This document shows, piece after piece, positions 2,006-23,035 of a DNA stretch of 23,035 bases (position 1 is its first letter; the number at the start of each line of letters is the position of its first letter). Below the pieces are notes generated by a model that searched no databases, was not told the origin of the DNA, and saw only the letters and a list, made by a program, of their open reading frames with translations. The position numbers and the translations under genes are program-made. The stretch comes from a virus, in the IMG/VR virus record IMGVR_UViG_3300025671_000562, positions 1 to 23,035 of that record; one strand, 5' to 3'.

Positions 2006-4570
2006 ATGGCTAGAGTTGCAGTTCAATTAACGAACTTTACAGGCGGTGAGTTATCTCCAAGATTAGATGGTAGAAACGATTTAGCAAAGTATGCTTCTGG
2101 TTGCTCAACCTTAGAAAACTTAGTTGTCTATCCACATGGCTCAGCAGCTCGTAGACCGGGTACAAACTTTGTAGCTGAAGTTGCAGACAGTACAAAAAAA
2201 ACAAGACTAATTCCTTTTGAATTTTCTACAACACAAACTTATATGCTTGAGTTTTCAAATTTAAAAATTAGAGTATTTAAAGATAATGGTGCTGTACTAG
2301 AAGGAGATAAAACTATATCTGCAATTACTAAAGCTAATCCTGCTGTAGTAACTGCAACTTCACATGGATATTCAAATGGTGATGAAGTATTAATTAGTGG
2401 TGTCGGAGGTATGACAGAGGTTAATGGTAAAAGATTTTTAGTTGCAGACAAAACTACTAATACATTTGAATTACAAGACAAAGATGGAACTGATATAAAT
2501 AGTTCTGGATTTACTACTTATACTTCTGGTGGTGTATCAAATAAAGTTTTTGAAATAACAACACCTTATTTAGAAGCAGAATTATTTGATTTAAAATTTG
2601 CACAATCTGCAGACGTTATGTATATTTGTCATCCTAATCATGAAGTAGAAAAATTATCTAGAACAGGTCATACATCATGGAGTTTAACAGATGTAGATTT
2701 TACTAAAGGACCATTCTTAGACCCAAACACTACAGCAACAACATTAACTCCATCAAGTGCTTCAACAGGATCAAGAACTATTACAGCAAGTGCTACTACT
2801 GGAATAAATGGTGGGTCTGGATTTTTAGCAACAGATGTTGGTAGACAAATACATTTTAATTCTGGTTATGGAATTATTACAGGAAGAACAAACACAACAG
2901 AGATAACTGTAAATGTAACTACAGCTTTTACTAATGCTAACGCAATTACTAATTGGTTTCTTGGAGCATTTTCAGACACTACAGGTCATCCCTCTTGCGT
3001 AACTTTTTTTGAACAAAGATTAGTTTTTGCTGCAACATTAAATAATCCACAAACAGTTTATTTTTCAAAGTCTGGTGATTATGAAAATATGGATGCTAAT
3101 CTTGGTGGAACGATTGCAGATGATGATGCTATTATTTATACGATTGCGTCTAACCAAGTAAATGCTATTCGTTTCATGACAGCAACAAGAACTTTAATTA
3201 TTGGTACAGCAGGTGGTGAGTTTGCAGTATCTGGAGGTGGTACAGATAATGCTATTACTCCAACAAACATATTAATTAAAAAACAATCTAACCATGGTGC
3301 AGCTAACGTAGATGCTATAGCTGTAGGTAACGCTACATTATTCTTGCAACGTGCTAGAAGAAAAATTAGAGAACTAGCCTTTAACTTTGATGTTGATGGT
3401 TATGTAGCTCCAGACATGACAATCCTTGCAGAACACATTACTGAAGGTGGTTTAACACAAGTTGCATACCAACAAGAACCTAATCAAATTATTTATGCAA
3501 CAAGAGAAGATGGAGAGTTAGTTGGCTTAACATATCAAAGAGAGCAACAAGTAACAGCTTGGCACAGACATATATTTGGTGGGAGATTTGGTATAGCAAC
3601 ATTAACAGTTTCTGATTATGCAAACATTGCAAATGGAACTAAATTAACTTTAACAAAATCAGATGGTACAACTGTAGACTTTAATTCTACAACAGGAACT
3701 GCTGGAACTAATGAATTTAAAACTGAAACTAACAACAATACTACAGCAACCAATTTAAAAACTGCAATCAATGCTCACGCTAATTTTACTGCAACAGTAT
3801 CTAGTGCAGTAGTTACAATTACAGAAACAGCACATGAAGCGACAGGATATTTAACAATTAAAAGTTTTGACAGTACAAGATTAACTGCAACAAGCGAAGG
3901 TAAAGCAATGGTAGATAGTGTAGCTGTTATTCCTACAGATGATAAAGAATATCAAACATGGGTAATTGTTAAAAGAACAATAGATGGTACTACTAAAAGA
4001 TATGTTGAATATTTAAACGAACTTGACTTTGATGAAACAGATAACACATCATTTAATTTTTTAGATAGTGCATTAAGTTATAGTGGTAGTGCTGCAACAA
4101 CTATTTCTGGATTAGCACACCTTGAAGGTCAAGTGGTTGCTATATTAGCAGATGGTGCAACTCATCCAAACAAAACTGTAAATGGTAGTGGTGAAATTAC
4201 TTTAGATCGTTCAGCAAAAAATGTTAAAGTAGGTTTAGCTTTTACATCTTTACTACAAACAATGAGACTAGATGCTGGATCACAAAATGGTACATCACAA
4301 GGTAAGACTAAAAGAATATATGATATTACAGTAAGAATGTATGAAAGTATTGGTATAGAGGTTGGACCAGATCTTTCGAACATGGAAAGAATACCATTTA
4401 GAAGTTCTGCTGACTTAATGGATGAAGGTATACCTCCATTTACAGGAGATAAAGAAGTAGAATTTAGAGGAAACTACGAGACAGATGGCTTTATTTTTGT
4501 TAGACAAACACAACCTTTACCTTTTACAATTTTATCGTTATACCCAAGGTTAGTAACTAATGATGGATAA
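2006..4570 (+). CDS. Tail tubular protein B (T7 gp12-like nozzle)
   Basis: The 854-residue product begins with the family signature NFTGGELSPRLDGR (10-23) and has GSAARRPGT at 45-53, typical of gp12-like tail nozzle proteins. Residues about 107-181 resemble the FCCH-like beta insertion seen in many phage tail proteins (HGYSNGDEVLI, then VNGKRFLV). Residues about 528-634 look like another inserted Thr/Asn-rich beta domain between HIFGG and VDSVAVIP, segments I expect to be nearly adjacent in shorter homologues. The C-terminus ends in the usual PFTILSLYPRL. The protein would form the tail tube through which DNA leaves. It overlaps the next gene by 11 bases. Confidence 0.92.
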   Translation: MARVAVQLTNFTGGELSPRLDGRNDLAKYASGCSTLENLVVYPHGSAARRPGTNFVAEVADSTKKTRLIPFEFSTTQTYMLEFSNLKIRVFKDNGAVLEGDKTISAITKANPAVVTATSHGYSNGDEVLISGVGGMTEVNGKRFLVADKTTNTFELQDKDGTDINSSGFTTYTSGGVSNKVFEITTPYLEAELFDLKFAQSADVMYICHPNHEVEKLSRTGHTSWSLTDVDFTKGPFLDPNTTATTLTPSSASTGSRTITASATTGINGGSGFLATDVGRQIHFNSGYGIITGRTNTTEITVNVTTAFTNANAITNWFLGAFSDTTGHPSCVTFFEQRLVFAATLNNPQTVYFSKSGDYENMDANLGGTIADDDAIIYTIASNQVNAIRFMTATRTLIIGTAGGEFAVSGGGTDNAITPTNILIKKQSNHGAANVDAIAVGNATLFLQRARRKIRELAFNFDVDGYVAPDMTILAEHITEGGLTQVAYQQEPNQIIYATREDGELVGLTYQREQQVTAWHRHIFGGRFGIATLTVSDYANIANGTKLTLTKSDGTTVDFNSTTGTAGTNEFKTETNNNTTATNLKTAINAHANFTATVSSAVVTITETAHEATGYLTIKSFDSTRLTATSEGKAMVDSVAVIPTDDKEYQTWVIVKRTIDGTTKRYVEYLNELDFDETDNTSFNFLDSALSYSGSAATTISGLAHLEGQVVAILADGATHPNKTVNGSGEITLDRSAKNVKVGLAFTSLLQTMRLDAGSQNGTSQGKTKRIYDITVRMYESIGIEVGPDLSNMERIPFRSSADLMDEGIPPFTGDKEVEFRGNYETDGFIFVRQTQPLPFTILSLYPRLVTNDG

Positions 4571-18295: not shown

Positions 18296-18456
18296 TGAAA
18301 AAAGGTTATCACAAAACTAAATCTGGTAAGATGGCTAAGAAGGGTCTTTACTATAACATCAATAAAAAAAAACGAGCTGGTACTTCAAACTCTAAAAAGA
18401 AGTCTACTATATCTGCGAAGGCTTATAAGAATATGAAGTCTGGATTTAAGAAGTAG
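18295..18456 (+). CDS. 53-residue basic protein, conserved in marine phages
   Basis: The frame starts in a TAATG overlap. The product carries KKGLYYNINKKKRAGTSNS followed by STISAKAYKNMKSGFKK. The GLY-x-NI-x-x-K+-AGTS pattern and the KAY-x-x-M-x-x-GF end recur in many small phage proteins from aquatic metagenomes, as I remember them. It is the last gene of the rightward late block. Its 3' end overlaps the leftward DnaA-like gene by 11 bases, tail to tail. Confidence 0.65.
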   Translation: MKKGYHKTKSGKMAKKGLYYNINKKKRAGTSNSKKKSTISAKAYKNMKSGFKK

Positions 18457-18979
18457 TTATTGGCAACAACTCTGTTTTTAAATTTTCATACTCTTTCCAG
18501 ATAGAATATTCGCTACCCCAATATCTAGATTTGTTTTGTTTATTGTTTAGTGAATGTAAAACTGTAGTGTGATCTTGACCAAACACTCTACCAATAGATG
18601 ATATGCTTATATTATATTCTTCATGTAAAAGATTATAAAGTATACTTCTAGTTCTAACTATATCTCTAGTTCTACCTTTACCAAACACATCACGTTTACT
18701 TACAAGATATTTTGCACAAACTTTATCTACTATTGTATTAACAGTTTTTAAATTTGCGTTTTTGTAAACAACTCCAATTATTTTCTTATTACTATCATCA
18801 ATTGGTTGGTGTCGTAAAAGTTTTGCAGCATATAAAAATCCTTCTGAGAACCCTACCTCATATAATCTTTCTTCTTGGTCCGTTAAAAGGTAAAATGCTT
18901 TCTTAACTTTGTATACAAATGTGTTTTGGTCTAGGTGTTTTATATGTTTATTATAGTGTATGCTTGTATTTATGGTCAT
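18446..18979 (-). CDS. DnaA domain IV-only DNA-binding protein
   Basis: The 177-residue product has, at about 80-150, the full layout of the DnaA C-terminal DNA-binding domain: a VCAKYLVSKRDVFG helix, a basic loop (GKGRTRDIVRTRS), a helix, then SSIGRVFGQDHTTVLHS (128-144), whose DHTTV core contacts the DnaA box in bacterial DnaA. There is no ATPase (Walker) domain; residues 1-79 are unlike DnaA and mostly helical. It could mark a phage origin, recruit host factors, or compete with host DnaA. An AGGGGA SD precedes the ATG, and TATAAA occurs in the 48-base gap upstream. Domain call is firm; role is inference. Confidence 0.85.
   Translation of the reverse strand: MTINTSIHYNKHIKHLDQNTFVYKVKKAFYLLTDQEERLYEVGFSEGFLYAAKLLRHQPIDDSNKKIIGVVYKNANLKTVNTIVDKVCAKYLVSKRDVFGKGRTRDIVRTRSILYNLLHEEYNISISSIGRVFGQDHTTVLHSLNNKQNKSRYWGSEYSIWKEYENLKTELLPITTS
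18455..18483 (+). terminator. Weak terminator-like element at the convergent junction
   Basis: AGTT (18455-18458) and AACT (18468-18471) flank TTGGCAA, with one mismatch, and a T-rich stretch (TTTTT, then TTTT) follows from 18474. The stem is short and AT-rich, so termination would be weak. It is the only terminator-like structure I found where the late and early operons converge. Confidence 0.2.
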
Positions 18980-19977: not shown

Positions 19978-20649
19978 TTATGATTGATTATTGTTTAGTG
20001 TTGCTTCATGCTTACTACTTACATCTCTGATCTGTTCGTAGGCTTTGAAGTTATTTTTCTTTAGATGATTAACAACTGATCTTACTTGATTCTTAACTGT
20101 AGTAAATTGCTTTTCAGTTTTACTTTGTAAGATTAGGTTAATGATCTCTTCTACATCCACTTCATCATCCATGTATGTAGGTTCTACAGATGGCTCTGAA
20201 GAATTTTGTTCAAATGGTTTGGCGTTATAACCATCTTCTAAATCCATTCCTGTCTTTAGATTAAGTGCATTTAAGAACGCATACTTTTTACTATACGACA
20301 TGGCTTGACCCGTTCCGTATTTATCAAGACCACCCATTGCAGTACAACCATCAATCACAACAAAACTTGCTGGATCATCAATGTCAGTTATTCTCATGGT
20401 GCAAGTTACAATTACAAATTTATCTGTAACATCTGTTATGTAATTACAAGTTGGATATAAACCATTTTTTAATAAAGCATCCATTGCAACTCTTTGCACA
20501 TCATCATGAAGTAAAGGATTAAAAGGCATACCTTTAACCTTACTTGCTTTCTTTACACTACTTGCATGATTACAAGCACTATGTAATTTCTTGTGTATGT
20601 TTGTCATATTTTTATTTCCCATTCTATATACGTTGTTTTCACTACTCAT
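19978..20649 (-). CDS. ERF-family single-strand annealing protein
   Basis: The 223-residue product carries the ERF signature at about 111-130, YGTGQAMSYSKKYAFLNAL, preceded by a beta-rich stretch with VTCTMRITDID. ERF proteins bind single-stranded DNA and promote annealing in phage recombination (as in P22). The C-terminal 60 residues are a separate helical, Asn/Lys-rich region after an acidic linker. The start at 20649 has GGGGAG six bases upstream and overlaps the exonuclease stop by eight bases. Pairing with a nuclease gene makes a two-component recombination system. Confidence 0.92.
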   Translation of the reverse strand: MSSENNVYRMGNKNMTNIHKKLHSACNHASSVKKASKVKGMPFNPLLHDDVQRVAMDALLKNGLYPTCNYITDVTDKFVIVTCTMRITDIDDPASFVVIDGCTAMGGLDKYGTGQAMSYSKKYAFLNALNLKTGMDLEDGYNAKPFEQNSSEPSVEPTYMDDEVDVEEIINLILQSKTEKQFTTVKNQVRSVVNHLKKNNFKAYEQIRDVSSKHEATLNNNQS

Positions 20650-21559
20650 ATTTTACTCCCCATAGTTTAGTTATTAATTGTTTTTGTTCATCTGCTAAAT
20701 CTTTATAGTAAAAGAAATGATTAAGGTCTGGTGGCTCCATCATTAAAGCTAACTTCTCTATACTACCTTCACAAAACATAATCATCTTCTCCCACAACAT
20801 AATCTTATCGATCATTTTATTATAAAGATGTTGCAAGTGATCTGCCTTCATTAACTCATGACTTTGATCAAAGATAATATAATCTTTATCATTAACATAT
20901 ACCAAGTGAGGTATCTTCTTTGTTGTCATGTAGTAGAACGAAGTCTGAGTTAAATTCTCAATCGTAGGCTCTGAAGGTAAATCTTGAGTGATCATGTTCC
21001 ACTCCTCTTTACCTTTAACCTTTCTTAAATTAGGTGGCTTAGTTTTTAATTCTATAAATTTTGTTTTAGTTTCATAATCTATTCTGCCAATCACCGGCTT
21101 GATCATATCAAACTCTTTTAGCTCTACATATCTTTCGCAAACTAATTTATCTTTACCTATAATTTCTTGCACAACTTTTTTTGTAATTGGAATACAATCT
21201 TCCGCAAATCTAACCATAGCTTCTCTGCCAAACTTATCCTTTGCGTCAACCGGTGGATTTTTATTGATTGCTTCTTGCTCAGCTTTAAAACAAACATTAT
21301 AATTTTTATCCCACTCTGTTTCTTTAATTGTTTTTGATTTATAAATTACATCTGCAATCATTCTCTGGACCACATTGTTTACTAGGTTGCCAAAGTTTGC
21401 TTTGTATCTAAATGGAAACTTCCTTCTAACTTCTTGAGGAAAAGTATAACCTAATAAATTTTTTGCAAAGGGTGTTGATGTAGATGAATAAGACCAATGA
21501 TCTAATCCTTCACCACCATTAAATATTGAGAACGCTTTTTCTATTTTTTGTTTTTCCAT
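20642..21559 (-). CDS. PD-(D/E)XK exonuclease (Cas4/RecB-like)
   Basis: The 305-residue product shows the PD-(D/E)XK core: Asp 161 in GRIDY, then Glu 170 and Lys 172 in FIELKTK, and a downstream LTQTSFYY (203-210) like the Q-x-x-x-Y motif of RecB-family nucleases. These enzymes resect DNA ends, producing single strands for an annealing protein, which is the next gene. It is the first gene of the leftward operon, with AAAGG upstream of the ATG, and starts just beyond the divergent control region. The YSSTSTPF near residue 24 resembles the N-terminal region of phage RecB-like nucleases. Confidence 0.85.
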   Translation of the reverse strand: MEKQKIEKAFSIFNGGEGLDHWSYSSTSTPFAKNLLGYTFPQEVRRKFPFRYKANFGNLVNNVVQRMIADVIYKSKTIKETEWDKNYNVCFKAEQEAINKNPPVDAKDKFGREAMVRFAEDCIPITKKVVQEIIGKDKLVCERYVELKEFDMIKPVIGRIDYETKTKFIELKTKPPNLRKVKGKEEWNMITQDLPSEPTIENLTQTSFYYMTTKKIPHLVYVNDKDYIIFDQSHELMKADHLQHLYNKMIDKIMLWEKMIMFCEGSIEKLALMMEPPDLNHFFYYKDLADEQKQLITKLWGVKYE

Positions 21560-21583
21560 TTATACCTTTCCGTTTTTATACTG

Positions 21584-21612
21584 TAATTACACCCGTTATT
21601 GTCTATTGTCAA
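21584..21612 (-). promoter_or_regulatory. Candidate leftward promoter for the exonuclease operon
   Basis: On the minus strand a consensus TTGACA lies at 21612-21607 inside the palindrome, with a weak TAATTA 17 bases on (21589-21584). A better TATAAA (21580-21575) is too far from TTGACA but 19 bases from TAGACA (21605-21600). The perfect -35 and the position support a promoter; the exact -10 is unclear. Confidence 0.3.
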
Positions 21613-21615
21613 TAG
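21597..21615. promoter_or_regulatory. Candidate operator: palindrome plus tandem repeat
   Basis: CTATTG-T-CAATAG (21603-21615) is a perfect 13-bp palindrome. TATTGTC occurs twice in tandem (21597-21603, 21604-21610), the second copy inside the palindrome. It lies between the leftward exonuclease operon and the rightward small-gene operon and overlaps the promoter-like hexamers of both strands, as expected for an operator of a dimeric repressor or activator. Confidence 0.5.
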
Positions 21616-21633
21616 CTATAAAAGATATATAAA
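21606..21633 (+). promoter_or_regulatory. Candidate rightward promoter
   Basis: TTGTCA (21606-21611) and TATAAA (21628-21633) are 16 bases apart, a fair sigma-70 match. Transcription would begin near 21640, only a few bases before ATG 21644, so the message would be nearly leaderless, which agrees with the absent SD. A second TATAAA at 21617-21622 lacks a good upstream hexamer at proper spacing. Confidence 0.4.
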
Positions 21634-21643
21634 AGACACTAAA

Positions 21644-21904
21644 ATGACTAAGAAAAAACTACCATATAAAAAGGTGCGTGTTATCTGGCAGGATATTTGC
21701 TCATCTTCCCAATGGTATGACGATTTATCAGACGTTGATAAGTTTAGTTATTCTTGGTGCGAGGACATTGGTTATCTTTATTATAAAGATTCTAAAGTTC
21801 TAAAAATTTTTACTTCTTATTCTTATGATGAGGATAAGTTATCTATTGGAAACATAACTGCTTATCCAAGATCTGTAGTTAAAAAAATATTATATGAAAA
21901 ATGA
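21644..21904 (+). CDS. 86-residue phage protein of unknown function
   Basis: I use ATG 21644; an upstream TTG in frame at 21599 would place the operator inside the gene. The product begins MTKKKLPYKKVRVIWQDI, followed by SSQWYDD, a central WCEDIGYLYY, a predicted strand (VLKIFTSYSYDE) and NITAYPRSVVKKI. The V-x-W-x-DI...GYL...ITxxPxxxVxxI layout recurs among small uncharacterised phage proteins near replication genes. It is the first gene of the rightward early operon and its stop overlaps the next ATG. Confidence 0.65.
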   Translation: MTKKKLPYKKVRVIWQDICSSSQWYDDLSDVDKFSYSWCEDIGYLYYKDSKVLKIFTSYSYDEDKLSIGNITAYPRSVVKKILYEK

Positions 21905-22068
21905 CATACTCTGGAATATTTAAAGAAACTGAATGTGTAGAAGATTTAAAACGAGCTAAGAGATATATTGAAAAACAAGCTAGTATAATTTTTGCACTTG
22001 AGAGAGAGATAGAAGAAAAAAATAATGAGATAATAATAATAAGAGGTAAACTGAAAGAGGAAAAATGA
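21901..22068 (+). CDS. 55-residue coiled-coil protein
   Basis: ATG 21901 overlaps the previous stop (ATGA) and the frame ends in another ATGA overlap. The product is a charged helix (VEDLKRAKRYIEKQASIIFALEREI and onward, in short heptad-like runs) ending in KLKEEK. It has no motif or membrane segment. AAAGAGGAAAA near its 3' end acts as SD for the following gene. Function unknown. Confidence 0.6.
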   Translation: MTYSGIFKETECVEDLKRAKRYIEKQASIIFALEREIEEKNNEIIIIRGKLKEEK

Positions 22069-22223
22069 AATGTTTTTTTTGCGACACCGAAGTTAGATGG
22101 AATTGTGATTATGATTCAGAAGATGTTAATCCAGATTCAAAATATACCATAACAAGTATGTATGAGTGCGACAATTGTAAGGCTTGGTATGAAGTGTCTA
22201 CTGATAAAAAAGAAAAAAAATAA
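22065..22223 (+). CDS. 52-residue zinc-ribbon protein
   Basis: The product has Cys 3 and Cys 6 (MKCFFC) and Cys 35 and Cys 38 (ECDNCKAWYEV), a classical CxxC...CxxC zinc ribbon, with an acidic loop in between and a Lys-rich tail. The ATGA start has an AGAGGAAAA SD. Similar minimal zinc ribbons are frequent in phage early regions. Function unknown; protein or nucleic acid contact is likely. Confidence 0.7.
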   Translation: MKCFFCDTEVRWNCDYDSEDVNPDSKYTITSMYECDNCKAWYEVSTDKKEKK

Positions 22224-22250: not shown

Positions 22251-22631
22251 ATGGCTAGATACACCTACGCATTTAGCAATGGGGATTATAACGATTGGCA
22301 TAGAAAATACGAGGGTATTGCTATGATTGATGTAGATAGTGTTGAGTGTTGTCAGTATTGTTATGAGCCTTTAGCTATTATTGAAACGTGTTATGATAAG
22401 GACCAGAAATATAAGGCTACAACCCTCTCAAAGATCATTGCTGAACGCCTAAACATACCCTGCTTTTTAGTATTCTATAAGGAAGTGAGTAAAGGTAGTC
22501 TAACTTTTAGAATCAAGCGTATACGGAGCTCTCAGACAGAGTTTCATTACATGAATGAGGATCAATGGGTAGACATCTTGCGAAACCTCCATATAAACCA
22601 TAGTAAAAACTGTAAGAAAGGAAAAAAATGA
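22251..22631 (+). CDS. 126-residue Cys-containing phage protein of unknown function
   Basis: I use ATG 22251; an in-frame TTG at 22245 precedes it. The product reads IDVDSVECCQYCYEPLAIIET at 26-46 in pieces: an Asp/Ser lead, three Cys (33, 34, 37) and PLAIIE, then a helix and strand PCFLVFYKE. I recall a broadly spread phage family with the same DVDSVE-x-C-x-x-C...PL-x-x-IE layout, unnamed. The fold may be nuclease-like but no catalytic set is certain. Base and Arg codon usage is less AT-biased than in neighbours (CGC, CGT, CGG, CGA appear). It ends in ATGA overlap. Confidence 0.65.
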   Translation: MARYTYAFSNGDYNDWHRKYEGIAMIDVDSVECCQYCYEPLAIIETCYDKDQKYKATTLSKIIAERLNIPCFLVFYKEVSKGSLTFRIKRIRSSQTEFHYMNEDQWVDILRNLHINHSKNCKKGKK

Positions 22632-23035
22632 ATACATCTAGGGGATTTTTACATATTACCTATAAATTATATCATCACTTAAATATTATTGACGGAGAAA
22701 AAAAATCACATTGTTTAAATGTATTTTTATCTGTTATGAAATATGCTTGGAAAAAAAATGGCTACAAAGCTGATCTAAGGCATGAAACAATCCATAAAGA
22801 CACCGGACTTTGCCGAACCACAATTAAATCTTGTTTGGAAACTTTAAATAAACTGAATGTTGTTAAATCTATTAGAGGTCGATCTGGTAAAACCTATATT
22901 GTTAATGAAGTATTTTTAAAAGCTGAAAAACTTTACGAGCCAACCCAGATAGCCGTTAAACCTACACAAGATAGCCGTTTTACGGCTACATTAGAAGAAG
23001 CATTATACATTAATAATATATCTAAAATAGTTAAA
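22628..23035 (+). CDS. Winged-helix replication/regulatory protein, 3'-truncated
   Basis: The frame opens at ATG 22628 (ATGA overlap, GAAAGGAAAA upstream) and stays open to the window end, showing 136 residues. Residues about 30-98 form a winged helix: helix, then IHKDTGLCRTTIKSCLETL as helix-turn-helix, LNVVKSIRG, a wing with RSGKTYIVN. A polar linker follows (PTQIAVKPTQDSRF). This is the typical N-terminus of phage replication initiators of the O/DnaD-like type, and also of some transcription regulators. The missing C-terminus would decide. Its place in the rightward early operon favours replication. Confidence 0.75.
   Translation, partial: MNTSRGFLHITYKLYHHLNIIDGEKKSHCLNVFLSVMKYAWKKNGYKADLRHETIHKDTGLCRTTIKSCLETLNKLNVVKSIRGRSGKTYIVNEVFLKAEKLYEPTQIAVKPTQDSRFTATLEEALYINNISKIVK

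Follow-up and report, generated by a model that had tools for sequence, protein, structure and literature searches.

The window, by which we mean the whole stretch of 23,035 nucleotides analyzed here, is a virus record of IMG/VR. An 84-nt gap between a leftward nuclease gene and a rightward 86-aa gene houses CTATTGTCAATAG, a perfect 13-bp odd palindrome found once in the window, at 21603–21615. What does this symmetry do? A first-pass annotation took it for an operator on which a single dimer could switch both divergent operons. What it had described is there: the palindrome is real, the half-site TATTGTC is repeated in tandem just to its left (21597–21610), and TTGTCA on the plus strand (21606–21611) overlaps TTGACA on the minus strand (21612–21607) inside it. 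It had also seen no repressor gene beside the site, and a tblastn search with seven helix-turn-helix (HTH) queries gave zero matches in the window. The answer we favor, and hold to be likely, is that two back-to-back σ70-type promoters share one −35 heptamer and hence are mutually exclusive for RNA polymerase.

The genes on the two sides of the gap are as follows.

19978–20649, minus strand: ERF-type single-strand annealing protein, second leftward gene, identified by profile matches.
20642–21559, minus strand: first leftward gene, 305 aa, annotated "putative nuclease" in relatives; 21 phage records match.
21644–21904, plus strand: first rightward gene, 86 aa, phrog_25889, function unknown (E 1.6e-34).
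22628–23035, plus strand: start of the gene for a winged-helix-type protein, truncated where the window ends; the protein is 225 aa long in L001 and L002.

The 305-aa nuclease gene has no Pfam or PHROG match. The homologue of the winged-helix protein in phage HTVC024P is weakly like O-type replication initiators (E 0.0025); the structure model of the protein is poor (pLDDT 53.5), and a sequence search found no solved relative (best E 0.077, unrelated). Further along the leftward side, a gene with a DnaA C-terminal (DNA-binding) domain lies at 18446–18979 on the minus strand (E 9.1e-17), and several isolates likewise have a DnaA-like gene annotated on their nuclease side. The rightward genes at 21901–22068, 22065–22223 and 22628–23035 (plus strand) have ATGA stop-start overlaps, so their translation is probably coupled. 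A phosphoadenosine phosphosulfate reductase gene is annotated inside the rightward operon of HTVC034P (L090:1592–2413), and one is found on that side in phage C72C1 as well.

To what kind of phage does the locus belong? Matches to the nuclease come from 21 phage records at no more than 89% identity, and 20 of these records carry the name of a Pelagibacter phage. All 21 cover at least 80% of the nuclease, and the gene order is shared by isolates compared with the window. That is, an operon for the nuclease and annealing protein diverges from an operon of small genes, with homologous proteins. Judged by these nuclease matches, the window is part of an HTVC010P-type pelagiphage. Relatives were collected by nuclease and HTH-protein searches of IMG/VR, with 12 of the 21 phage matches added, to give 207 nuclease-match records. 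In this number the window is counted twice (itself and L093), and some contigs were fetched by two queries. The omitted phage matches include eight further Skadi records and a duplicate HTVC010P record; HTVC028P has a different gene order and is in no control-region count. The records fall into two arrangements. In 84, here called no-HTH, a gene for an 86-aa protein lies directly opposite the nuclease gene; in 111, called HTH+, a gene for a protein of about 75 aa stands between them; 12 were unassignable. With identical and very short sequences collapsed or omitted, there are 126 distinct control regions, 48 no-HTH (the window included) and 78 HTH+. Three HTH+ rows stand outside the core counts: L090 (no TTGACA match of at least five), L092 (TTGACAG) and L113, for which the script chose another hexamer although TTTACAA is present. 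All counts below describe loci that are best matches to chosen queries rather than a random sample. In one HTH+ locus, L154, about 440 bp (~2561–3001) separate the starts of the HTH gene and the nuclease gene, more than in other HTH+ loci, and an insertion in its control region is therefore possible.

The elements of the control region, with their conservation, are these.

21597–21610, plus strand: tandem TATTGTC TATTGTC, lineage-specific, seen in 6 of 48 no-HTH regions.
21603–21615, no strand: 13-bp odd palindrome CTATTGTCAATAG, all 13 bp kept in 7 of 48 distinct no-HTH regions.
21606–21612, no strand: predicted shared −35 heptamer TTGTCAA / TTGACAA, an invariant core in 48 of 48 no-HTH regions.
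21606–21611, plus strand: predicted rightward −35 TTGTCA (5/6 consensus), in the best-scoring rightward promoter of 48 of 48 no-HTH regions.
21628–21633, plus strand: predicted rightward −10 TATAAA after a 16-bp spacer; TATA at 16–17 bp in 48 of 48 no-HTH and 72 of 75 HTH+ regions.
21607–21612, minus strand: predicted leftward −35 TTGACA (6/6 consensus), 6/6 in 48 of 48 no-HTH regions.
21584–21589, minus strand: predicted leftward −10 in the 17-bp register, TAATTA; T-12 and A-11 at 17 bp in 48 of 48 no-HTH regions.
21586–21591, minus strand: alternative leftward −10 TGTAAT with a 15-bp spacer, at 15 bp in 29 of 48 no-HTH regions.
21634–21643, plus strand: 10 nt from the rightward −10 to the ATG; by its spacing, a putative leader of a few nt or none.

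The heptamer is the anchor of the argument. TTGWCAA occurs once in the window, as this heptamer. The core of the 78 HTH+ regions is TTGACAA in 32 and TTTACAA in 43. Rightward, TATA stands 16–17 bp from the core in 120 of 123 pooled regions, where chance would give it in about 7% of sequences, and in 26 of 27 clusters formed at 80% identity. The rightward −10 of the no-HTH regions, 16–17 bp from the −35, reads TATAAC in 46 and TATAAA in 2. Leftward, TATA at 16–17 bp is found in 0 of 48 no-HTH regions versus 68 of 75 HTH+ regions with the same core. By a simple score, the best promoter uses the heptamer on each strand in all 48 no-HTH regions. Among the HTH+ regions this is so for 64 of 75 rightward (mostly ties) and 75 of 75 leftward; in the remaining 11 a different rightward promoter outscores it. 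The window thus has −35 and −10 elements on both strands with the 16–18 bp spacing of a σ70-type divergent pair, though without a leftward TATA. The two halves differ in their strong points: the leftward promoter has a perfect −35 and a poor −10, whereas the rightward one has a −35 that is one position off and a good −10.

A generic promoter scan of the window lists neither promoter of the pair, as its pattern requires a T at the end of the −10; generic scans gave matches at chance level. Alphaproteobacterial −10 boxes usually lack the final T, and −10s of the TATAAC type fit this pattern, as described in the available text of PMC8407463. The available text of PMC10504331 gives the relative Skadi-1 as lacking an RNA polymerase of its own, so transcription from these promoters is expected to fall to the host polymerase. 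The literature searched yielded neither mapped transcription starts nor an infection transcriptome for this phage group.

Some further sequence features of the region were considered and set aside. Avoidance of TTGWCAA elsewhere seemed to be indicated by its single occurrence in the window versus 7.3 in shuffles, but pooled over nine sequences the ratio to a second-order model is 0.65, ninth lowest of 24 palindromes of like composition, and no claim is made. A TCCGTT direct repeat, its copies ~21 bp apart in many relatives, was rejected as a tandem operator, since by eye the copy at the −10 persists where the core-side copy is gone. There is no Rfam match to structured RNA in the window. Four no-HTH isolates carry a second TTGTCAA ~3.3–3.8 kb beyond the nuclease start (HTVC024P, L081:9159; Greip, L082:23288; HTVC100P, L084:6415; HTVC035P, L086:6770). 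This copy is probably coding and reads TTGTCAAAGC in three of the four.

From the elements, their spacing and their conservation, which are observed, we infer two active promoters that exclude one another, as follows. The host holoenzyme would bind the shared heptamer through region 4 of σ, oriented either rightward or leftward. The rightward layout would be TTGTCA, 16 or 17 bp, then TATAA(A/C); the leftward one would be TTGACA and 17 bp to TAnT, or 15 bp to TGTAAT. Rightward transcription would cover the small genes and the winged-helix gene; leftward transcription would cover the nuclease, the annealing protein and the DnaA-like gene. Since the predicted starts are only ~60–65 bp apart, two polymerases should not fit. 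If only one polymerase can dock at a time, initiation in one direction should preclude initiation in the other. Of the two promoters, the leftward one has the weaker case: its −10 is poor in the window's clade (no TATA in the 48 regions), and thus it may need an activator or lie elsewhere. On the rightward side, the distance from the −10 to the ATG is 8–11 nt in 48 of 48 no-HTH regions versus 24–34 nt in 72 HTH+ regions. This suggests that the message of the window's 86-aa gene is leaderless or nearly so, if transcription starts 6–7 nt past the −10.

Where does this leave the palindrome? The competing proposal is that a dimer, of a small phage protein, the winged-helix protein or a host factor, binds CTATTGTCAATAG and thereby switches both operons; we think this unlikely. 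The perfect 13-bp symmetry is indeed placed over both −35 boxes. As a sequence, though, it is not rare: the window contains 16 odd palindromes of at least 13 bp, and 40 first-order Markov simulations give a mean of 11.4 (range 6–18). The count is thus at chance level, which rules out rarity as an argument. Among the 48 no-HTH regions, the symmetry around the heptamer extends over 13 bp in 7, over 9 bp in 34 (mostly GTTGACAAC) and over 7 bp in 7. The 9-bp class favors an operator, and so does covariation at the first pair flanking the heptamer. This pair is complementary in 41 of the 48 regions versus a mean of 25.4 in shuffles, which ignore the relatedness of the regions. Its states are G-C in 31, A-T in 10 and mismatched in 7, with only eight state changes on the nuclease tree. 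A reading in terms of −35 boxes alone does not predict such covariation, which is the counterpoint to our own account.

Beyond the first pair the case for an operator weakens. The outer flanking pairs of the 48 regions are no more complementary than in shuffles. The right arm TAG occurs in 17 no-HTH regions; the matching left arm CTA is present in only 7, and the left arm is unmatched in 10 of the 17. Because the TAG arm mostly lacks its CTA partner and the outer pairs do not covary, the outer symmetry is not being maintained. In addition, 29 of the 32 HTH+ relatives with a TTGACAA core have no symmetry beyond that core. Counted by eye, the tandem half-site (TTGACAATAGACAATA on the nuclease strand) appears in only 6 of the 48 no-HTH regions. 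Thus, the dyad symmetry expected of a repressor operator, conserved beyond the promoter elements, is kept over 13 bp in 7 of 48, and past the core only the first pair covaries. Conservation in close relatives was the refuting test that the first-pass annotation had set for itself, and its outcome is divided: the 13-bp palindrome fails it, being kept in 7 of 48, and the 7-bp core passes, being kept in 48 of 48, a conservation that two overlapping −35 boxes already explain. What stands of that annotation is a divergent region in which two −35 boxes overlap in a symmetric core; what finds no support is the idea that the palindrome is a conserved dimer operator. The 13-bp palindrome appears to be mostly a local accident around the shared box rather than a proven repressor site. 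The symmetry would be a by-product of the two overlapping −35 boxes, its 13-bp extension belonging to the window's sublineage. On these sequence comparisons, an operator role for CTATTGTCAATAG is unsupported and improbable rather than refuted. A general caution follows: palindromes over divergent −35 boxes may arise as a by-product of box overlap.

Another unlikely reading holds that the rightward promoter alone is real here, the minus-strand TTGACA being its mirror image and the nuclease operon starting elsewhere, in the window perhaps via TATAAA at 21575–21580 on the minus strand; the weak leftward −10, with TATA at 16–17 bp in none of the 48, and the generic scan, which lists no leftward promoter at the site, favor it, but the 6/6 TTGACA and the T-12 and A-11 at 17 bp are invariant in 48 of 48, and 68 of 75 HTH+ relatives place a leftward TATA 16–17 bp from the same core.

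The HTH+ relatives bear on how a shared −35 heptamer, the reading we prefer, might be regulated. In these phages an extra gene, encoding a protein of ~75 aa, comes first in the rightward operon. Its structure model is confident (pLDDT 95.6) and has five helices. The nearest solved chains are mostly XRE-type regulators, namely dr_2454 (Z 8.1), P22 c2 (7.9) and YdaS (7.7), with C.Csp231I (7.5) and the 434 repressor (5.5) also near, these Z-scores lying in a range where common arrangements occur. The five-helix model has the XRE-type helix-turn-helix fold. Foldseek gave no significant match to the model (none at E ≤ 0.001), Pfam HTH_3 matched only below its cut-off (best E 0.03, 9 of 30 members), and sequence searches up to E 1 found no solved relatives. 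By its modeled fold, the protein is a candidate Cro/CI (XRE)-type regulator, and thus a candidate repressor. The position of its gene, and the fact that gene and control region differ as one block (see below), point to a target over the rightward −10. The protein probably binds an AT-rich near-palindrome there, e.g., GTTATATATAAC in phage Lederberg. Within its own control region in Lederberg or HTVC204P the candidate site is TATATATA, a site other than CTATTGTCAATAG. In HTH+ phages the Cro-like protein would probably bind near the rightward −10, freeing the hinge, i.e., the shared heptamer, for the leftward promoter. In the window's clade the hinge is kept without a Cro-type gene, and either competition alone or an unknown factor would set direction. 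By tblastn with the seven HTH queries, the gene is absent from the whole HTVC024P and Greip genomes and from nearly whole HTVC100P (33,059 of 34,606 bases) and HTVC035P (33,358 of 36,066); the same search found it in all four HTH+ isolates searched.

Was the gene lost or gained? On a nuclease tree of 125 rows (L092 was omitted as too short), presence of the HTH gene changes twice, versus ~38 times in shuffles. The no-HTH regions sit together in a single 50-row group with support 89, which is below the starred level. Nested in this group, beside L094 and L066 (support 98–99), are HTVC204P and L095, in which the gene is present. Every outer lineage, i.e., the HTVC010P, HTVC034P, Lederberg and Skadi types, carries the gene. 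The simplest history is therefore one in which the window's ancestor lost the gene and HTVC204P regained it, on a tree that does not fix the direction. Comparison of HTVC204P with L094 shows flanks that align at ~80–83% up to ~20 nt from both start codons. The part that does not align is 313 nt in HTVC204P (control region and HTH gene) versus 70 nt in L094, a single block, so that gene and control region differ together.

L085:2657–2893, no strand given: Cro-type gene of HTVC204P, within the 313-nt non-aligning block.

A larger scenario can be put forward only tentatively, as possible rather than probable. It is a λ-like switch built on a shared −35 hinge, from which one clade deleted the Cro-type repressor; there, polymerase competition alone would set direction and the rightward message would be leaderless, and repressor and control region could be reacquired as a swappable block, as in HTVC204P. 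If the repressor was deleted and the hinge kept, the result would be a repressor-free two-way switch. HTVC010P-type phages rank second in abundance among known pelagiphage groups, according to the available text of PMC12753301. Pelagiphages infect the ocean's commonest bacteria, and the HTVC010P type is among the most abundant known. No account of how HTVC010P-type genes are timed without a phage RNA polymerase was found in the literature searched. Nor was a paper on a shared −35 in HTVC010P-type phages found there, the main genomic paper on the group lying outside that literature. Isolates that have the Cro-type gene and isolates that lack it, all built around the same −35 box, form a natural series for asking whether promoter overlap alone can run a two-way switch.

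How does the arrangement compare with known ones? Among the HTVC010P-type phages themselves, HTVC024P, Greip, HTVC100P and HTVC204P have the gene order of the window around the site; what sets the window's sublineage apart is the 13-bp symmetry and the tandem half-site. In λ, PR and PRM, with Cro and CI, are back-to-back phage promoters with a Cro-type gene heading one operon, and their −35 boxes are separate. The likeness lies in the back-to-back promoters and in the Cro-type gene that comes first in one operon, here in the HTH+ relatives. The differences are that the −35 is common here, that no CI partner has been identified, and that in the window's clade the promoters have no Cro-type gene next to them. 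The Pc and Pr promoters of plasmid pLS20 are also divergent and overlapping, with the XRE-type regulator gene Rco adjacent. The available text of PMC4207663 describes that polymerase can itself act as regulator there, one promoter being occupied at a time. In the same account, each pLS20 −10 is thought to coincide with the −35 of the other promoter, and Rco loops the DNA, whereas here the −35s coincide; pLS20 has Rco beside its promoters (PMC4207663), whereas the window's clade is without a regulator gene. In the bidirectional promoters of E. coli, pseudo-symmetric DNA seats RNA polymerase in two ways, one excluding the other, as far as the available text of PMC12825309 describes them. The likeness is in the two mutually exclusive polymerase orientations, which here are predicted. 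The E. coli promoters share a −10, and their divergent starts, mostly 18 bp apart, flank it or lie within it (PMC12825309); here separate −10s flank a shared −35, and the predicted starts are ~60–65 bp apart. To summarize, a −35 that is wholly shared, and is conserved in a phage family whether or not its regulator gene is present, is a variant of known systems and not a new kind.
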